Of a DNA stretch of 64,000 bases, positions 12,104 to 47,198 are shown piece by piece. The stretch covers positions 1 through 64,000 of the forward strand of contig JACPFA010000015.1 of the NCBI GenBank assembly GCA_016183235.1, written 5' to 3'. The notes under the pieces are model-generated. The model searched no databases, was not told where the DNA came from, and worked only from the letters and a program-made list of their open reading frames with translations. A program made the translations under genes and the position numbers. Origin of the DNA: Deltaproteobacteria bacterium (GTDB lineage Bacteria > UBA10199 > DSSB01 > JACPFA01). Within the stretch, counting starts at the first letter, position 1. Every line of letters starts with the position of its first letter.

Positions 12104-14186
12104 AAACATTAATGGGTTGAGAAGAAAGTTTTGCTCGAACTGCTTGTAAGAGCGCCTCAACCGATTTCTCCGTTAGGTCTAGTAAATGGGTGTGTGAGCT
12201 GGTCAGGGTGAGGTAGAGGGAGTGATCTTCTAAATGAAAAGGGGTTGATTGAATTATTTTCTTAACCCGTTCAATAACAATCGTGCCACCTTCTAAATTT
12301 GTTTCGGGCATCAAAAGCGCAAATTCGCCTGGTTTTAAACAAACCACTTCATCACAAACCCTCACATTTTTGATTAATAAATTTAGAATATTTTGACAAA
12401 GTTCAAGGGCAGATTGTTGGTATTGATCTTGTAAAAAATCAAACCCCACAACAGTGAAGAGGCCAAAGCACAAGTCGCGCTGATACCGATTGCAGCGGGT
12501 GACCTCGCGCTCGAGTTGTTCCATAAAATGTCGAACATTGCCAAACTTCTCTTGGTAATAATGAAAGAATGCGCCTTGTCGATCTACCAATTCATCAAAC
12601 TTCCCAAACTCGCTTAGCCTTCCGGCACTGAAATACAAAACAGTATCACAAGTGCGTAATACTTCGATCTCTGGGTTTAAATAAATTGTCATACGGTCTT
12701 GGGCTATTTCTTTGAGTAAGCCCTTCATATTTTTATAATCGGTTTCTTCTAATGAAACATCATGTTTAATAATTACGATGCTTGGGTTCTGTAGTAAAAT
12801 TTTGGCCAAGTTCAACCTGAATTCAGTTGATAGGTCTAGCTTGATTCCGGTATCACCCAGTGGAGTAGATAAACCTTGAGGTAAGTTTTCTAACCATTTT
12901 TCTAGCCCAACCTTGGCAAGGGCAAGGCTTGCTTCGGTGGAGGTTGGAGTTATTTTAGGAGTCGTTAGATTTTTCAGCAATGTTGCATTGAACACTTTCA
13001 TTTCGTCTAATAAAATTCCGAAATGAGAACGTAGCGATCGAATAGATAGTTTGTGCGCTTGAGTACCATGAATGAAAACCAGATTTTCTTCTAAAGGGAG
13101 TTGATGAATCAAGGTTTGAATCCACTCCCACGATAATTCTTTGTTTTCATCAACGATGGCCAAATGGGCTTTGGGGAGGATGGCCGGCTTGCTTGAGTTT
13201 GTGTTTTCATGGTGGGGGAAAATCATAACTGCATTATTAGCGGCCTCGCTTAAGTTGTCTGTAGCGGTTGTTAAATTGAGAATCTTACGGATAGAATCAA
13301 CACTGCGATGCAGGCCTCGAATTTGACGAAATGAAAAGCGTAAATGATTTAAAGGTGATTGAATCAAAACGAAATTAAGAAAAAAGAAACTAGCCTGTCC
13401 CAAAGAAGTATCCCCCAATACCAATTTGTAACCCAAAAAAAAGCTAACCAACCCCACCCAGACTTTAACAATAATCGATTCACCAATGGCTTTGATGCCA
13501 CTTAAGAACCGCAAACGAATCGAAAGCATGAGCCGATTCGACAAACTTTGTTTAAGTTGATCAAGGGATTGATGTTCGGAATTAGAGCCCAGCACATCGA
13601 GATGAGTTTCGGCATAGTGGCGCAAACTTTTTAATTGATTGGTAAAGAGAGGTTTTTCTAGAAGATAAATGGGGATACCAAAAAACACAATGAGCGATAA
13701 ATTGCGATCGACATAAAACAAAATAATGCAAATTAAAGCGAGTTGAAAGCAATGGCCTGTGGATCGAACCAATTGATTAGGTAAGGTGGAGGCGAGCTGT
13801 ACGTCATGTTCTAAAGAATCACTAATCGATTGAACATATTTTTGATAATTTTGCAGGCGAGATAAAACCAGTAGTTTGTCAAAAAGCAAAACCGACAATT
13901 TAAGGCCGGCCTTTTCTTCCAACATCGTTTCAAAATAATCTAAACAACTTCCTAAAATAAGCATGAGCACCAATAAAAAAATGCAAGCGTAGAGTAGCGG
14001 TAAATAAAGGTTGAGCGCCCCATAAGGCACAATGATATCTAAGAAGAATTTAGCGACCAGTGGGAGCAGCAGCAGGGTAATCCCATGCCCAAATTCACCA
14101 AGCAATTGTAGCGTGCGCACCACGCCATCGCTTAAAAATAAAGTTTTGAAAACCGAGAATTTAGGAGCTAAGGGTTGAGCCACCAC
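12081..14186 (-). CDS. degenerate ABC exporter-like protein fused to GGDEF-like domain
   Basis: The 701-residue protein has three parts. Residues ~20-310 form a six-helix ABC exporter-type membrane domain. Residues ~330-535 align by order with an ABC ATPase, but Walker A (GxxGxGKST) is missing: the region reads LAIVDENKELSWEWIQ. The signature is replaced by LDLSTEFRLNLAKILLQNP, and Walker B has become SIVIIKHDVS. Residues ~545-690 look like a GGDEF domain (FMEQLEREVTRCNRYQRDLC at its start, VRVCDEVVCLKPGEFALLMPET at the active loop) with the catalytic GGDEF changed to KPGEF. So neither ATP hydrolysis nor cyclic-di-GMP synthesis is expected; a receptor or scaffold role is inferred. The start is GTG, directly after an in-frame TAG. 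Confidence 0.75.
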   Translation of the reverse strand: MVAQPLAPKFSVFKTLFLSDGVVRTLQLLGEFGHGITLLLLPLVAKFFLDIIVPYGALNLYLPLLYACIFLLVLMLILGSCLDYFETMLEEKAGLKLSVLLFDKLLVLSRLQNYQKYVQSISDSLEHDVQLASTLPNQLVRSTGHCFQLALICIILFYVDRNLSLIVFFGIPIYLLEKPLFTNQLKSLRHYAETHLDVLGSNSEHQSLDQLKQSLSNRLMLSIRLRFLSGIKAIGESIIVKVWVGLVSFFLGYKLVLGDTSLGQASFFFLNFVLIQSPLNHLRFSFRQIRGLHRSVDSIRKILNLTTATDNLSEAANNAVMIFPHHENTNSSKPAILPKAHLAIVDENKELSWEWIQTLIHQLPLEENLVFIHGTQAHKLSIRSLRSHFGILLDEMKVFNATLLKNLTTPKITPTSTEASLALAKVGLEKWLENLPQGLSTPLGDTGIKLDLSTEFRLNLAKILLQNPSIVIIKHDVSLEETDYKNMKGLLKEIAQDRMTIYLNPEIEVLRTCDTVLYFSAGRLSEFGKFDELVDRQGAFFHYYQEKFGNVRHFMEQLEREVTRCNRYQRDLCFGLFTVVGFDFLQDQYQQSALELCQNILNLLIKNVRVCDEVVCLKPGEFALLMPETNLEGGTIVIERVKKIIQSTPFHLEDHSLYLTLTSSHTHLLDLTEKSVEALLQAVRAKLSSQPINVYEVENRQ

Positions 14187-41673: not shown

Positions 41674-44280
41674 ATGCAAAAAAATCTTAAACCCATGTCA
41701 TTGCGAGCGCAAGCGAAGCAATCTTCATTATTTCTTCTTCTCTTTTTTCTTTTCTTTCCCATCACCCAAATTCAAGCCTTCCCCAACCTCGAGCGCCCCG
41801 ATGGTGGCACCAAACCCATTACCGATGTCGATCGCTCTTCTGAATCCACCGGTATTGCTGTGTCTCCCGACGACCGCTATATCATTGTGGCAGATAGTGA
41901 TGATTTGGTCATCATCGATACGGCAACCTGGGATGAAACCGGCAGTCAGCCCGCCACCTTTGATTCGGCCATAGAGGGCTTTGCCTTTTCAAACGATAGC
42001 ACTCTTTATGCAGCCTTGAGCGATGGCAGCCTCAAACGCGTGAGTGTCACCAATCCTTCTGATGTTGCCACTTATTTAACGACAGATAGCACCAACAATT
42101 TTGATGGCATTGCCATGGTGCGTTCGACGACGAACAATCTTATTTATCTTTTCGATGAATCGAATGATGTGGTGTATCAATTTAATATCAGTAATCAAAC
42201 CATCGATGATTCTTTTGAAACCCCTAACAACGAAGATATCCTTGCTATAGCGGCCATTGATTTTCCCGCCAATGTTTCTTCGGGTAGTGATGGTGGCAGC
42301 ACCGATGTGTTGCTGATTACCACCGCCCAATCCAAAGTTTTTTTTGTTAATGGCAGCACCTTTGATCTTATCACCACCACTTCCTTAAACGGCACCAATT
42401 CAAGTTGCACGCATGCCAGTGGAGATCGCCGCTTCACCAGTGTGGCCATCGGGCCCAATCGCGATATTGCTTTTGTGATTGATAATACCGACAACACCAT
42501 TCATGTAGTTGACACAATTAATCATACCGAGCTTGATGCCGTAAGCGATCAAAGCGGTACGAACCCCCTATGTATCGAAACAACGCGCAATGATGATATT
42601 ACCAATATTACTATCACCAAGGTGACAGAGCCCAGCAATGCCATCCGTGGTTTCATCACGGGTTCCAGTGGCCTTTCGGTAATCAATGGCGATCGCAGCA
42701 ATTTAGAAGTGCTCGATATGGACACCGCAACCAGTGGCACGCAACCGCTCTCGCTTTCTCGCAGTGCAAGTCACGTGGCCAGCAGTTCCCAAGAAGATGG
42801 TTATGTTTATGTGGCCAATTCCGATGGTACCATCTCGGTAATTTCAGATAACCCCTTTGTCACTATGTCGGCAGTGACCCCCAGTTCAGTAACTCAAGCT
42901 GCACCTACTTTTACACTTACCTTCCAAGCCGATGAAGTTTGTGCCACCTGTAATTATCGCGTGCGGGTGAATGGCGATGTCAAAGAGTCGGGCACATTAA
43001 TATTAGATAACACGAGTTTATCGGGCGCGACGGTCAACACCGATATCACGACGGCCGCCATTGACATCACAAGTTTTGCTTCAGGCACTTTTACGGAAGG
43101 TAGCAATCGAGTGTATGTATTTGTGGATGATGCGGCGGGTAACACCGGTCGTGACTCTTTAACGTTAACCGTCGATCTACCACCTCCCAACGTCACGATT
43201 CACAGTACCAACTTTGGAAATAGCAAAGGTTTCATCACCATCACTCGCCTTACCGAGGCGGATATCAAACAATATAATATTTATGCCCAACTAGCCTCTG
43301 ACCAAGCCAGCCCCACTTGCCCAGGGGCAATTGATTTTACAGCAGCCCCCATCAATAACTCCGTTGCCCAAGAAAGCTCAGGCGACCAAATCACCATTAT
43401 TGCAACCAATCTGGTAAACGGGTTTTATTATTGTGTAGCGGTTGAGGCCCAAGACAATACCGGCAATGTGAGCGCCAGCCGCGTCGTCGCTAGTTCGCCC
43501 ATTTTCCCCGAGCCAGTTTTTGGCGTAATCGGCGGGGCAGGTGAGGTGGGTGGGTGCTCGCTTAATCATCATGCCAACGGTCAATATAGTTTTGTATTAT
43601 TGCTAGCTTTACTAATGACTCTCTTGTTGTCATTGCGAGGCAAAGCCGAAGCAATCTTCCTTTTTACTTCTGCCTTCTTTCTTCTCCTCCCCCTCCCCAC
43701 TCAAGCCGTCGAACTCACCGAAGAACATTGGGCAGGCGAAGTGAAGGGTGGTTTTTATTTTCCCACCAACGACAACATCGATCGTTTTTTCGGTGGTTGT
43801 TGCAACGGGTTTTACGAATTACGTTTTGGTCGCCTCATCAAATCCCAACTTCAAATTGATGTTGGTTTAGGCTTTATGTTAGAAAAGGCATCAGCCCTAG
43901 GTTCTATTACAGGCCGGCCGTCGGGCGAGAGGTTCACCTTCATGATTCTACCGATTTCTAATTCGGTAACCTATCGTTTTGATAGGTTAGAAAACCAGGT
44001 GTTGGTTCCCTTTGTAGGTGCTGGGGTTGACTATATGTGGTACCGCGAAAGTCTTTCCGGTAGTTCTACATCGGGTTGGAAATTTGGCTATCACGCCTTT
44101 GGCGGCTTGCAAATTTTACTCGAATGGTTTGATCGTGTGACTGATTTTATGGAAGGGGAGGGGGTCAACGATGTCTACCTAACCTTAGAGGGCCGTTGGA
44201 CTCAAATCGACAATTTCGGTGGCAATGGGTTAAATGTGTCGGGCTTTTCAACCATGATGGGGTTGTATTTTTCTTTTTGA
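41674..44280 (+). CDS. secreted beta-propeller protein fused through repeat R1 to a beta-barrel protein
   Basis: The 868-residue frame looks like two proteins joined. Part 1 (residues ~1-650) has a signal peptide (SLFLLLFFLFFPITQIQA), YVTN-like propeller repeats (ESTGIAVSPDDRYIIVADSD, VYVANSDGTISVIS), then Ig-like domains, and ends with GGCSLNHH followed by FVLLLALLMTLLLSL, like a Synergist/Myxo-type C-terminal sorting tail. Part 2 begins with a second signal peptide (IFLFTSAFFLLLPLPTQAVE) and is an outer-membrane barrel of ~190 residues (GEVKGGFYFPTNDN...) ending in Phe. The joint (residues ~652-662, SLRGKAEAIF) is translated R1 repeat. A second R1 piece encodes the N-terminal MSLRAQAKQSS. 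Confidence 0.8.
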   Translation: MQKNLKPMSLRAQAKQSSLFLLLFFLFFPITQIQAFPNLERPDGGTKPITDVDRSSESTGIAVSPDDRYIIVADSDDLVIIDTATWDETGSQPATFDSAIEGFAFSNDSTLYAALSDGSLKRVSVTNPSDVATYLTTDSTNNFDGIAMVRSTTNNLIYLFDESNDVVYQFNISNQTIDDSFETPNNEDILAIAAIDFPANVSSGSDGGSTDVLLITTAQSKVFFVNGSTFDLITTTSLNGTNSSCTHASGDRRFTSVAIGPNRDIAFVIDNTDNTIHVVDTINHTELDAVSDQSGTNPLCIETTRNDDITNITITKVTEPSNAIRGFITGSSGLSVINGDRSNLEVLDMDTATSGTQPLSLSRSASHVASSSQEDGYVYVANSDGTISVISDNPFVTMSAVTPSSVTQAAPTFTLTFQADEVCATCNYRVRVNGDVKESGTLILDNTSLSGATVNTDITTAAIDITSFASGTFTEGSNRVYVFVDDAAGNTGRDSLTLTVDLPPPNVTIHSTNFGNSKGFITITRLTEADIKQYNIYAQLASDQASPTCPGAIDFTAAPINNSVAQESSGDQITIIATNLVNGFYYCVAVEAQDNTGNVSASRVVASSPIFPEPVFGVIGGAGEVGGCSLNHHANGQYSFVLLLALLMTLLLSLRGKAEAIFLFTSAFFLLLPLPTQAVELTEEHWAGEVKGGFYFPTNDNIDRFFGGCCNGFYELRFGRLIKSQLQIDVGLGFMLEKASALGSITGRPSGERFTFMILPISNSVTYRFDRLENQVLVPFVGAGVDYMWYRESLSGSSTSGWKFGYHAFGGLQILLEWFDRVTDFMEGEGVNDVYLTLEGRWTQIDNFGGNGLNVSGFSTMMGLYFSF
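41696..41726. repeat. R1 half copy encoding the signal-peptide start
   Basis: TGTCATTGCGAGCGCAAGCG followed by AAGCAATCTTC, translated as MSLRAQAKQSS with the ATG at 41695. It provides one of two candidate start codons of the secreted protein. Confidence 0.75.
43628..43659. repeat. R1 half copy at the internal fusion joint
   Basis: TGTCATTGCGAGGCAAAGCC followed by GAAGCAATCTTC, read in frame between the C-terminal anchor of part 1 and the second signal peptide. Confidence 0.75.
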
Positions 44281-44341
44281 TGTCGTTGCGGTTCGCCTTT
44301 GGCGGAAGCCCCACGTCATCCCGGCCTTGAGCCGGGATCCA
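44281..44341. repeat. degenerate R1 and R2 repeats
   Basis: TGTCGTTGCGGTTCGCC resembles the start of R1; CGTCATCCCGGCCTTGAGCC and GGGATCC form an R2 unit at 44314-44341. They fill the gap before truA. Confidence 0.5.
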
Positions 44342-44375: not shown

Positions 44376-45173
44376 ATGTCCAAATATAAATTAACTCTCA
44401 GTTACAAAGGCACCCGCTATTGCGGTTGGCAAGTCCAACCTAACGGCATCTCGATCCAAGAAATTGTTCAAGGTCATTTAAGCCAAATCTTGCAAGAACC
44501 CATTGTAGTGAAGGCCTCCGGTCGCACCGACGCAGGTGTTCACGCCTTTGCCCAGGTGGCCCATTTCAGTACCCAAAACCCCATGTCAGTTTCAAAGATC
44601 CTCCAGGGTTTACGCTCCATGTTGCCCGATGATATTTCAATTCAATCAATCGAAGAAGTCCCAGATTCCTTCGATGCGCAAATGTCAGCCAAGAAAAAAA
44701 CCTATGTGTATCTCGTTAACAATTCACCCGTACCCAATCCTTTCTTAATGGACTATTGTTGGCATGTCTACCCACCCTTAAATTTACCCGCCATGGAATC
44801 ATGTTTGAAATTGATTGTCGGTGAACACGACTTCACCAGCTTCACCGCCAGCGATGCCGTAACCAAAACTTTTGTGAGAACTATTTACGAAGCTTCCTGT
44901 AACCCGCTGTTATTGCGAGGCCCCAAAGGGGCCGTGGCAATCTCTCCGTGCGAGATTGCGGGGCTTGACCCGGGATCCATCTTAATCTTCTCCTTCACCG
45001 GTTCCGGTTTCCTAAAACACATGGTTCGCAACCTAGTCGGTACCATCGTCAACGTAGGCGAAGGCAAAATATCAACACAAAAATTTCAATCAATCCTAGC
45101 CTCAAAAGACCGCCGTAATGCCGGCATCAACGCCCCTCCGCAAGGTTTGTTTTTATTGGATGTTGAATATTAA
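44376..45173 (+). CDS. truA: tRNA pseudouridine synthase A with repeat-encoded insertion
   Basis: The 265-residue enzyme isomerises uridines 38-40 in the tRNA anticodon stem. It has YKGTRYCGWQVQPN, the catalytic aspartate in ASGRTDAGVHAFAQV, KKKTYVYLVNN, GEHDFTSFTASDA and HMVRNLVGTIVNVGEG. Compared with the usual layout, about 23 extra residues (178-200, LLLRGPKGAVAISPCEIAGL plus DPGS) lie between two beta strands before ILIFSFTGSGFLKHMVRN. They are encoded exactly by repeats R1 and R2, keep the frame and sit at a turn, so the enzyme may remain active. Confidence 0.9.
   Translation: MSKYKLTLSYKGTRYCGWQVQPNGISIQEIVQGHLSQILQEPIVVKASGRTDAGVHAFAQVAHFSTQNPMSVSKILQGLRSMLPDDISIQSIEEVPDSFDAQMSAKKKTYVYLVNNSPVPNPFLMDYCWHVYPPLNLPAMESCLKLIVGEHDFTSFTASDAVTKTFVRTIYEASCNPLLLRGPKGAVAISPCEIAGLDPGSILIFSFTGSGFLKHMVRNLVGTIVNVGEGKISTQKFQSILASKDRRNAGINAPPQGLFLLDVEY
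44907..44976. repeat. in-frame R1+R2 insertion inside truA
   Basis: CTGTTATTGCGAGGCCCC and GGGGCCGTGGCAATCTC form an R1-type palindrome, followed by GGCTTGACCCGGGATCC, an R2 core. About 69-70 bp are read in frame without a stop. Confidence 0.75.
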
Positions 45174-45532: not shown

Positions 45533-45662
45533 AAAGCCCTCCACAAATTACAGCAAGACAAGAACGATAATAGATAAGACATGGTAACAGCGAGAAGGAT
45601 GACTGTCAACAAGGTGCCATGTTTTGACCGTTCCACAGGCCCAAAATTTTTAGAATATAGCC

Positions 45663-45691
45663 TTTACATAGCCATAATACATAGCTACTAT
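45663..45691 (+). promoter_or_regulatory. promoter with operator repeats, near-leaderless antitoxin gene
   Basis: TTTACA (45663-45668) and TACTAT (45686-45691) are 17 bp apart, and transcription would start about at the ATG at 45698. Two ACATAGC direct repeats (45666-45672, 45679-45685), 13 bp apart, lie within the promoter and could be antitoxin binding sites. Confidence 0.45.
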
Positions 45692-45697
45692 AAAGCC

Positions 45698-46006
45698 ATG
45701 ATTCAAATCAATATCTCCACCTTGAAGAACCGATTAAGTGCCGTTTTAAAAAAAGTTAAAAAGGGCGAAGAGGTCTTAATTTTAGATCGGGAACACCCCA
45801 TCGCCAAAATTACTGCTCTTTCTGCAAAAGAGGGCCCTATGTCCGAACAAAATTTTCTCGCAACCCTTGAGCAAAAGGGGATTATTCAGCCTAATAAAAA
45901 AAAATTGCCTTCAGTGGAATGGCTAAAGGCAAACAGCCTTAAACTTAAGAAAAAGGTAAGTCTAGTTGATCAAGTTTTAAAAGAAAGGGAAGAGTCGAAG
46001 TGGTAG
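45698..46006 (+). CDS. Phd/YefM-family antitoxin
   Basis: The open frame extends 39 codons farther upstream, but MIQINISTLKNRLSAVLKKV at 45698 is the normal Phd N-terminus, and the promoter ends just before it. The ~102-residue protein has the DNA-binding Phd fold at the start (GEEVLILDREHPIAKI) and a C-terminal Lys-rich toxin-binding tail (KLPSVEWLKANSLKLKKKV). Its last 7 bp overlap the VapC start. It neutralises the toxin and represses the pair. Confidence 0.85.
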   Translation: MIQINISTLKNRLSAVLKKVKKGEEVLILDREHPIAKITALSAKEGPMSEQNFLATLEQKGIIQPNKKKLPSVEWLKANSLKLKKKVSLVDQVLKEREESKW

Positions 46007-46464
46007 CCTACTGGGATTCATCAGCATTGGTTGCCCTTTTGATTGAAGAGGAAAAATCGGTGCTAGCTCGCAAGCTGAAGGGGCAAACAAGTCAAATCCT
46101 AACCTGGGTGCTTACTCCCGTTGAAGTGTATTCTGCCCTTTGTCGTTTGGAAAAAGAGGGGGCTCTTAGTCTTAACGATTTTCAAAAATGTTATGAGGTT
46201 TGGCAAACGATCGAAAATGGCTTAATATTTGTTAAGGATATTGAAGCGGTCAAAAATATTTCTTATCGTTTGTTGCGTCTTCATTCCCTAAAAGCGGCTG
46301 ACAGTTTTCAATTAGCGTCTGCTATCTTGTCTAAGCAAGCCAACGAGGGTTTTCCGTTCATTACTTTTGATCAAAGGCTCGAAGAAGCCGCATTAAAAGA
46401 GGGATTTCAGATAAAAAACCTAAATATGGTCAAACCTTACTTCTCTGCTCGAGTATTGAAGTAA
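46000..46464 (+). CDS. PIN-domain toxin, VapC family
   Basis: The 154-residue protein is a PIN ribonuclease with the four acidic residues: WDSSALVALL, PVEVYSALCRLE, KAADSFQLASAI and ITFDQRLEEAA. It starts at a GTG that overlaps the antitoxin stop. VapC toxins cut tRNA or rRNA. A diverged duplicate of its last 50 bases lies 700 bp downstream (47146-47198). Confidence 0.9.
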   Translation: MVAYWDSSALVALLIEEEKSVLARKLKGQTSQILTWVLTPVEVYSALCRLEKEGALSLNDFQKCYEVWQTIENGLIFVKDIEAVKNISYRLLRLHSLKAADSFQLASAILSKQANEGFPFITFDQRLEEAALKEGFQIKNLNMVKPYFSARVLK

Positions 46465-46784: not shown

Positions 46785-47155
46785 ACAAACGTCTTGTCGT
46801 CATTCCAGTCGTCCTTTATGGAAAAAAAGGGCGTTTAGAGAGTGAATTTATTCTAGATACGGGCGCGTCATTAACGATCGTTGACCATAGTTTAGCCTTA
46901 TCCTTGGGATACTCGGCCAGGGATGGGATTGGCCTTTCAACGGTTTCCTCAGTTATTGGCAAAGAAAGGGGGTATCGACTGATGATGAAGGGGTTTGAAA
47001 CATTGGGAAGGCTTTATAACTCGTTTGAAGTGGCGTGTCATGATCTCCAAGACCAGGGTATAGAAGGATTAGTTGGTATGAATTTTCTCGAAAAATTTGA
47101 TTGGTGCGTGCATCCAAACAAACAGGTCATTTTTACCAAAGAGAAGCCGCATTAA
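46760..47155 (+). CDS. retropepsin-like aspartic protease
   Basis: The 131-residue protein has the single-domain aspartic protease signature ESEFILDTGASLTIVDHSLAL with the catalytic Asp in LDTGAS, and a later IEGLVGMNFLEKFDW, matching the flap and C-terminal psi loop of small bacterial retropepsins. These work as homodimers. It is coupled to the DUF5678-like gene. Its final codons (EKPH) lie in a sequence copied from the VapC tail, so the natural C-terminus may have been altered. Confidence 0.8.
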   Translation: MANFPYRLNKRLVVIPVVLYGKKGRLESEFILDTGASLTIVDHSLALSLGYSARDGIGLSTVSSVIGKERGYRLMMKGFETLGRLYNSFEVACHDLQDQGIEGLVGMNFLEKFDWCVHPNKQVIFTKEKPH

Positions 47156-47198
47156 AAGAGGGTTTCCAGGTGAAAAACCTGAATATTGTCAGGCCCTA
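47146..47198. repeat. duplicated 3' end of the VapC gene
   Basis: GCCGCATTAAAAGAGGG and AAAAACCT repeat 46387-46439 with about ten mismatches in 53 bases. It still reads ALKEGFQVKNLNIVRP in the VapC frame. It marks a recombination scar or the remnant of a second VapC gene and overlaps the end of the protease gene. Confidence 0.7.

Follow-up and report, generated by a model that had tools for sequence, protein, structure and literature searches.

The truA gene considered here raises the question of how dispersed palindromic DNA has come to be read as protein within an otherwise normal tRNA pseudouridine synthase, and whether this is peculiar to one gene or part of a wider pattern. The window, i.e. 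the whole stretch of 64,000 nucleotides that was analysed, belongs to a genome of 2.61 Mb in 51 contigs (98% complete), hereafter G000, whose relatives are MAGs labelled 'Deltaproteobacteria'. All conclusions below are drawn from the sequences of such MAGs.

The truA gene and its repeat-derived insert

The TruA encoded in this window keeps the SGRTDAGVHA motif, and its invariant alignment columns include R50, T51 and D52; from the sequence, Asp52 is the likely catalytic residue. With the RTDAGVHA motif and the TruA fold both present, the protein belongs to this family, and its intact frame and conserved residues are evidence for a working enzyme. The sequence is normal as far as ...FVRTIYEASCNP and again from ILIFSFTGSGFLKHMVRN on, with repeat DNA in between (Table 1), made up of pieces of two repeats designated R1 and R2.

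Table 1. Repeat elements and coding features in and around truA (positions in the window)
Feature	Position	Strand	Remarks
R1 half near start of the ORF upstream of truA	41696-41724	+	peptide MSLRAQAKQSS
R1 half, in frame in the same ORF	43628-43657	+	peptide LSLRGKAEAIF
Intergenic R2 copy	44314-44341	+	34 nt upstream of the truA start
truA, tRNA pseudouridine(38-40) synthase	44376-45173	+	265 aa, intact ORF; PF01416, E=1.9e-40
Extended hairpin tip, TruA residues 178-201	44907-44978	+	predicted by AlphaFold2; absent from E. coli TruA
Whole repeat-derived insert	44908-44980	+	73 nt, about 24 codons; R1 half, R1 stub and part of R2
R1 left half-element TGTTATTGCGAGGCCCCAAAGGGGCCGTGGCAATCTC	44908-44944	+	perfect inner stem GGCCCC/GGGGCC; other genome copies 89-93% identical
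R1 right-half stub GAGATTGC	44952-44959	+	8 nt; complements GCAATCTC in the left half; inverted repeat GCAATCTCTCCGTGCGAGATTGC
R2 distal part GGGCTTGACCCGGGATCCAT, fused to the R1 stub	44961-44980	+	20/20 identity to several copies within a 29% sample of the genome

The earlier note had proposed that repeat DNA lies in frame within truA, and this is borne out by the open frame, the Pfam match and the genomic copies of both parts of the insert. The extent it had given (44907-44976, about 23 codons) is roughly right, the repeat DNA being slightly longer. Its wording of an exact repeat suits the R2 part, which has a perfect 22/22 match elsewhere in the genome by BLAST, but not the R1 part, which is near-exact (up to 93% over 41 bp, E=1e-8) and deviates by TGTTATT for TGTCATT as well as by changes in the stem. 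A search of Rfam at the truA locus returned no match. The insert combines an R1 half with part of an R2, and its chimeric make-up points to an insertion that would have been followed by a frame-keeping rearrangement.

The repeats themselves are no product of chance, as shown by the controls: in the 2.6 Mb genome the R1 pattern has 267 exact hits (133 forward, 134 reverse), and the same pattern reversed, used as a control, has 0. In a 764 kb sample (29% of the genome, on which the R2 copy number rests), scans for R1/R2 found 118/28 hits where shuffled sequence yielded 2/3. R1 is therefore a dispersed multicopy palindrome, of the kind of the Rickettsia palindromic elements (RPEs). Its full-length form is most often 82 nt long (13 of the 39 copies outside the in-frame set) and is bounded by terminal inverted repeats of 12 bp (TGTCATTGCGAG/CTCGCAATGACA).

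Regarding structure, the AlphaFold2 model of G000 TruA has a mean pLDDT of 92, and most blocks lie at 88-98; those of the insert average 53 and 70. The insert appears as a low-confidence excursion between strands 167-177 and 202-210, surrounded by a confident fold, in keeping with the proposal that it sits between two strands of an otherwise normal enzyme. The TruA of a relative with a full 81-nt R1 (G035) is likewise modelled with a low-confidence tip, residues 178-189 scoring below 50. Together with a Foldseek TM of 0.88 between the G000 fold and E. coli TruA (2nqp/1dj0), these predictions are consistent with a surface loop that the fold can accommodate. At the same position, the turn in E. 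coli TruA is tight (TRHGP), as is the hairpin in TruA of Myxococcus, Nitrospina, other Deltaproteobacteria-labelled organisms and Firmicutes; no palindrome was found in the ten outgroup hairpin loops read in detail.

Besides truA, two ORFs in the window (45581-46006 and 46000-46464) resemble, by eye, a PIN-type toxin with its antitoxin partner; a 57-nt stretch of this pair (46383-46439) recurs with 84% identity at 47142-47198, which suggests a second copy.

Recurrence at the TruA hairpin and in other genes

In the class collection of 46 genomes, 36 have a TruA match; all 36 loops were read, and a palindrome occupies the hairpin in 11 of them. R1 is found in six (G000, G009, G020, G035, G021 and, with a slightly different end, G041), a GTAG-type palindrome designated R3 (GTAGGGGCG...CGCCCCTAC) in four (G027, G019, G039 and G029) and a further family, R4 (AATCCCCCTTTGACAAAGGGGGAATC...), in one (G034). 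In 10 of the 11 carriers, the family seen in the loop is abundant in the genome at hand. The R1 pattern has, besides the hits in G000, 181 in G035, 153 in G021, 97 in G020 and 46 in G009, and none in the five R3 or R4 carriers; the R3 pattern has 61 each in G019 and G027, 36 in G029 and 24 in G039, and none in the same five R1 carriers; and the R4 pattern has 57 in its carrier. In G041, the strict R1 pattern has 0 hits, and the element there, like several cases in control genes, was recognised by eye; conversely, false hits of loose R3 patterns (TruA of G005 and G007, several MetG, PrmC and TrmD loci) were discarded by eye.

On a TruA tree computed with the loop left out, in which the f4 group has no clear branching, the carriers are scattered and sister pairs differ, i.e. 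R4 in G034 vs. R3 in G039, R1 in G021 vs. none in G031, and R3 in G019 vs. none in G024. The insertion points lie about 6-11 residues past an invariant Arg, a spread of several codons, and R1 is translated in two frames (SLR.. and VIAS..). Since offset, frame and family all differ and the carriers are scattered, these sequences suggest 7-9 separate insertions in TruA of the class, an informal estimate rather than a formal reconstruction. The remainder of truA is under purifying selection where two insert-bearing relatives are compared: the core, loop excluded, has a dN/dS of 0.11 (G009/G020) and 0.15 (G034/G039), values that are rough because synonymous change is high (dS of 1.7 and 1.1). Such strong constraint outside the loop, with inserts in both members of each pair, suggests working enzymes.

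No close relative of G000 with an empty truA site was found in the class collection. Class members mostly have a longer and variable loop at this hairpin; in three (G012, G032 and G030) it is short and free of repeats, and the long loops of G005, G007, G002 and G006 have no recognisable repeat. The earlier note had held that relatives with the same loop and no repeat similarity would tell against an insertion, and here the outcome is divided: the palindromes in the class and their absence from the outgroup loops favour insertion, but some long loops are indeed without a repeat. In family f2 (L011, L013, L014 and L021), 46-55 aa separate the invariant Arg from GxGFLK with no recognisable repeat in between; these may be what is left of old inserts that have decayed, or have another origin.

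TruA is the gene most often hit among those examined, and the pattern is general. Within the 764 kb sample of G000, about 100 R1/R2 elements were counted, 17 of which lie within open frames that extend for 40 codons or more on each side, some of these being chance pattern matches (e.g. one in a ClpP-like frame). The search for further genes with inserts encoded by R1 or R2, which the earlier note had recommended, thus yielded several unrelated conserved genes: the Pfam families around an in-frame repeat include PrmC, UvrD, a PAD_porph enzyme, NamZ and Mur ligase, as well as a GCV_T-type protein (its second match being weak) and, on at least one side, a nucleotidyl transferase. A 350 kb portion of G027 has in-frame R3 copies in the genes for TruA, MutY, MetG, an acetyl-CoA-synthetase-type enzyme and an M15-type peptidase; the copies in TruA, MutY and MetG look recent as they have identical 25-nt arms in common. 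The G027 MetG frame (L196) holds two GTAG-type palindromes, at 13960 and 14398. As to the idea that the repeats spread into essential coding sequence, truA is a poor example, for it is not generally essential: both Pseudomonas and E. coli tolerate its deletion (PMC7822408). Better cases are R3 in MetG of a relative and R2 in the Mur ligase of G000.

The linker between the two domains of PrmC has received R1 in G000, R3 in G029, an R3 variant in G027 and R4 in G017, and about 4 of the 18 linkers that could be read, by hand, contain a repeat. The in-frame R1 of G000 PrmC (L165, 12428-12509) is flanked by a short inverted repeat (GGGCATAT...ATATGCCC, with arms of 18 bp in all), which may mean that R1 inserted into a small palindrome, or may be a vestige of how insertion took place. 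Among 30 loci each, TrmD has one insert (G039) and MetG one convincing C-terminal case besides that of G027.

The ORF upstream of truA joins two parts both in G000 and in G027; the junction contains the in-frame R1 half in the former and R3-type palindromes in the latter (L178, 15820-15941). It could be a further permissive linker, or two separate genes may have been taken for a single ORF. The true start of this ORF in G000 may lie downstream of the R1 half near its present start.

Probable insertion at permissive sites and its alternatives

The likeliest cause, to which we give a probability of roughly 0.8, is that palindromes insert widely and survive only at permissive sites. Short REP- or MITE-like palindromes would multiply and insert at many places in a genome, and copies landing in genes would mostly be lost as they break the protein; the survivors would be those in which the element, together with any small change at its flanks, keeps the frame at a permissive surface site, where the repeat thereby becomes protein sequence. 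Since 82 nt, the usual length of a full R1, is not divisible by three, in-frame survivors have to carry small length changes or a flanking duplication. If the tip of the TruA β-hairpin and the linker of PrmC are such permissive sites, unrelated families would have settled there independently in different lineages. The G000 insert itself is probably translated and roughly neutral. The long loops without repeat in family f2 are left unexplained by insertion at permissive sites itself.

An R1-moving enzyme of the RAYT type (IS200-like transposase) is a plausible candidate. G000 has a single Y1 transposase gene flanked by R1 (Y1_Tnp; contig C16, L136 1456-1953), with halves at 1378-1412 and 1965-2003, at distances of about 44 nt (upstream) and 12 nt (downstream); in its HUH motif, which reads G-Y-H, Gly replaces the first His, so that the enzyme may be dead. 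In the other genomes, with one copy checked per genome, neither R1 nor R3 lies directly beside a Y1 transposase, and an association with RAYT across the class was not upheld beyond the G000 case. In G021, a Y1 transposase gene (G021:C89:3809-4135) is located some 0.6 kb upstream of truA, which carries R1 there.

Recurrence at one hairpin could also mean that this DNA is a preferred target, its sequence or structure being recognised by the transposition machinery, so that targeting rather than selection would fill the site. A first control count agreed with this, with 9 of 33 TruA (G000 left out) against 4 of 88 loci for three other genes (Fisher p=0.001), or 7/33 against 6/88 by independent origins (p=0.03); the comparison is post hoc with small denominators, and its p=0.001 is not reliable after PrmC was recounted. 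That recount brought the PrmC linker, another permissive site, to a similar rate, and TruA as sole hotspot or specific target was dropped on this account: the higher rate than in TrmD and MetG goes with tolerance and not with truA itself. The insertion points several codons apart and the three unrelated families at the site also speak against targeting, which we consider unlikely. No better placed is the proposal that the truA palindromes are kept for a function, be it an mRNA hairpin tuning translation or stability or a peptide altering tRNA binding. Full R1 hairpins are very strong (-61.6 kcal/mol in G035, z=-8.4), nearly a third of the TruA of the class are occupied, and Di Nocera and co-workers have pointed to potential effects of REPs inside genes (PMC3733652); but the fold of the G000 insert is only slightly better than that of shuffled sequences (z=-1.7), no motif is common to the families, peptides and lengths, sister genomes do without inserts and other genes carry them as well.

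A single ancestral repeat in the loop of the class, renewed by gene conversion between dispersed copies, would account for a loop that is longer in most members than in the outgroups and for three f4 genomes that share position and frame (SLR...RND). We judge this improbable to the same degree, as R1, R3 and R4 have no evident common sequence through which to recombine, offsets differ, and the G012, G032 and G030 hairpins are short and repeat-less. Far less likely still is an artefact of assembly or binning, in which contigs were joined via a repeat: repeats do break assemblies, and the truA of G041 is split over two contigs just after the loop, but in ten non-split MAGs with different repeats the frame continues unbroken to either side, the flanks are the two halves of an orthologous truA, and palindromes at the same place in ten other genomes make an assembly error in G000 itself unlikely.

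Relation to known systems

In-frame palindromes tend to be regarded as a peculiarity of Rickettsia or as isolated instances. A census through a whole class makes it testable, by counting, whether such repeats drive protein evolution or survive where harmless; it also provides a natural map of insertion-tolerant sites in TruA and PrmC, and explains odd linker peptides met in translated metagenomes, such as SLRAxAKQS, GDPCDRP and QDSPLR. Repeats of this kind would recurrently turn into new protein sequence where the protein tolerates it. More tentatively, and with somewhat less than even confidence, the palindromes of this class could be a standing supply of new protein loops, with the TruA tip and the PrmC linker losing their inserts and gaining new ones from the family then active in a lineage; loop length and sequence in conserved enzymes would turn over fast as a result.

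Taken alone, the TruA insert is of a kind already known from Rickettsia and from REPs. RPEs are in-frame palindromes in unrelated protein genes, reported to be compatible with the fold (PMC10969869, PMC3733652), truB of R. conorii carrying RPE-1 (PMC3733652). In-frame palindromes beyond Rickettsia were reported in 2013, including one REP in truA of S. maltophilia (PMC3733652); intragenic GTAG/CGTC REPs of several species lie in UvrD, tRNA synthetases and several pseudouridine synthases (Di Nocera et al., 2013; PMC3733652), and recB of two Xanthomonas species has REPs at about the same site, other genes having them at different sites (PMC3733652). Searching the literature with the repeat sequence brought up unrelated papers only, apparently on account of primers. 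As far as the open-licence literature shows, the repeated filling of the same hairpin by unrelated families through a class has not been described.

Regarding the individual systems, R1 resembles MITEs by its common full length and terminal inverted repeats, but no clear target-site duplication was seen in the few copies inspected by eye and no parent transposon was found. The R1 halves on both sides of the G000 Y1_Tnp gene, within 50 nt, recall a REPtron, though in one case only and with the first His of HUH changed to Gly. R3 of the relatives is a short stem-loop with GTAG at its foot, opening with GTAG and closing with CTAC as GTAG REPs do, and UvrD and truA carry repeats in both settings; R1 has no GTAG end, and the REPs of Di Nocera et al. 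differ from the present case, in which three families occupy one hairpin in 11 of 36 genomes. The proposal of an RPE-like in-frame insert outside Rickettsiales is supported by the tight outgroup hairpins, the genome-wide abundance of R1 and the other genes with in-frame copies. What is common with Rickettsia are dispersed palindromes in frame in unrelated genes, a likeness of kind; what differs is the host, a lineage of MAGs labelled 'Deltaproteobacteria', and the presence of several unrelated families at one site across many genera.
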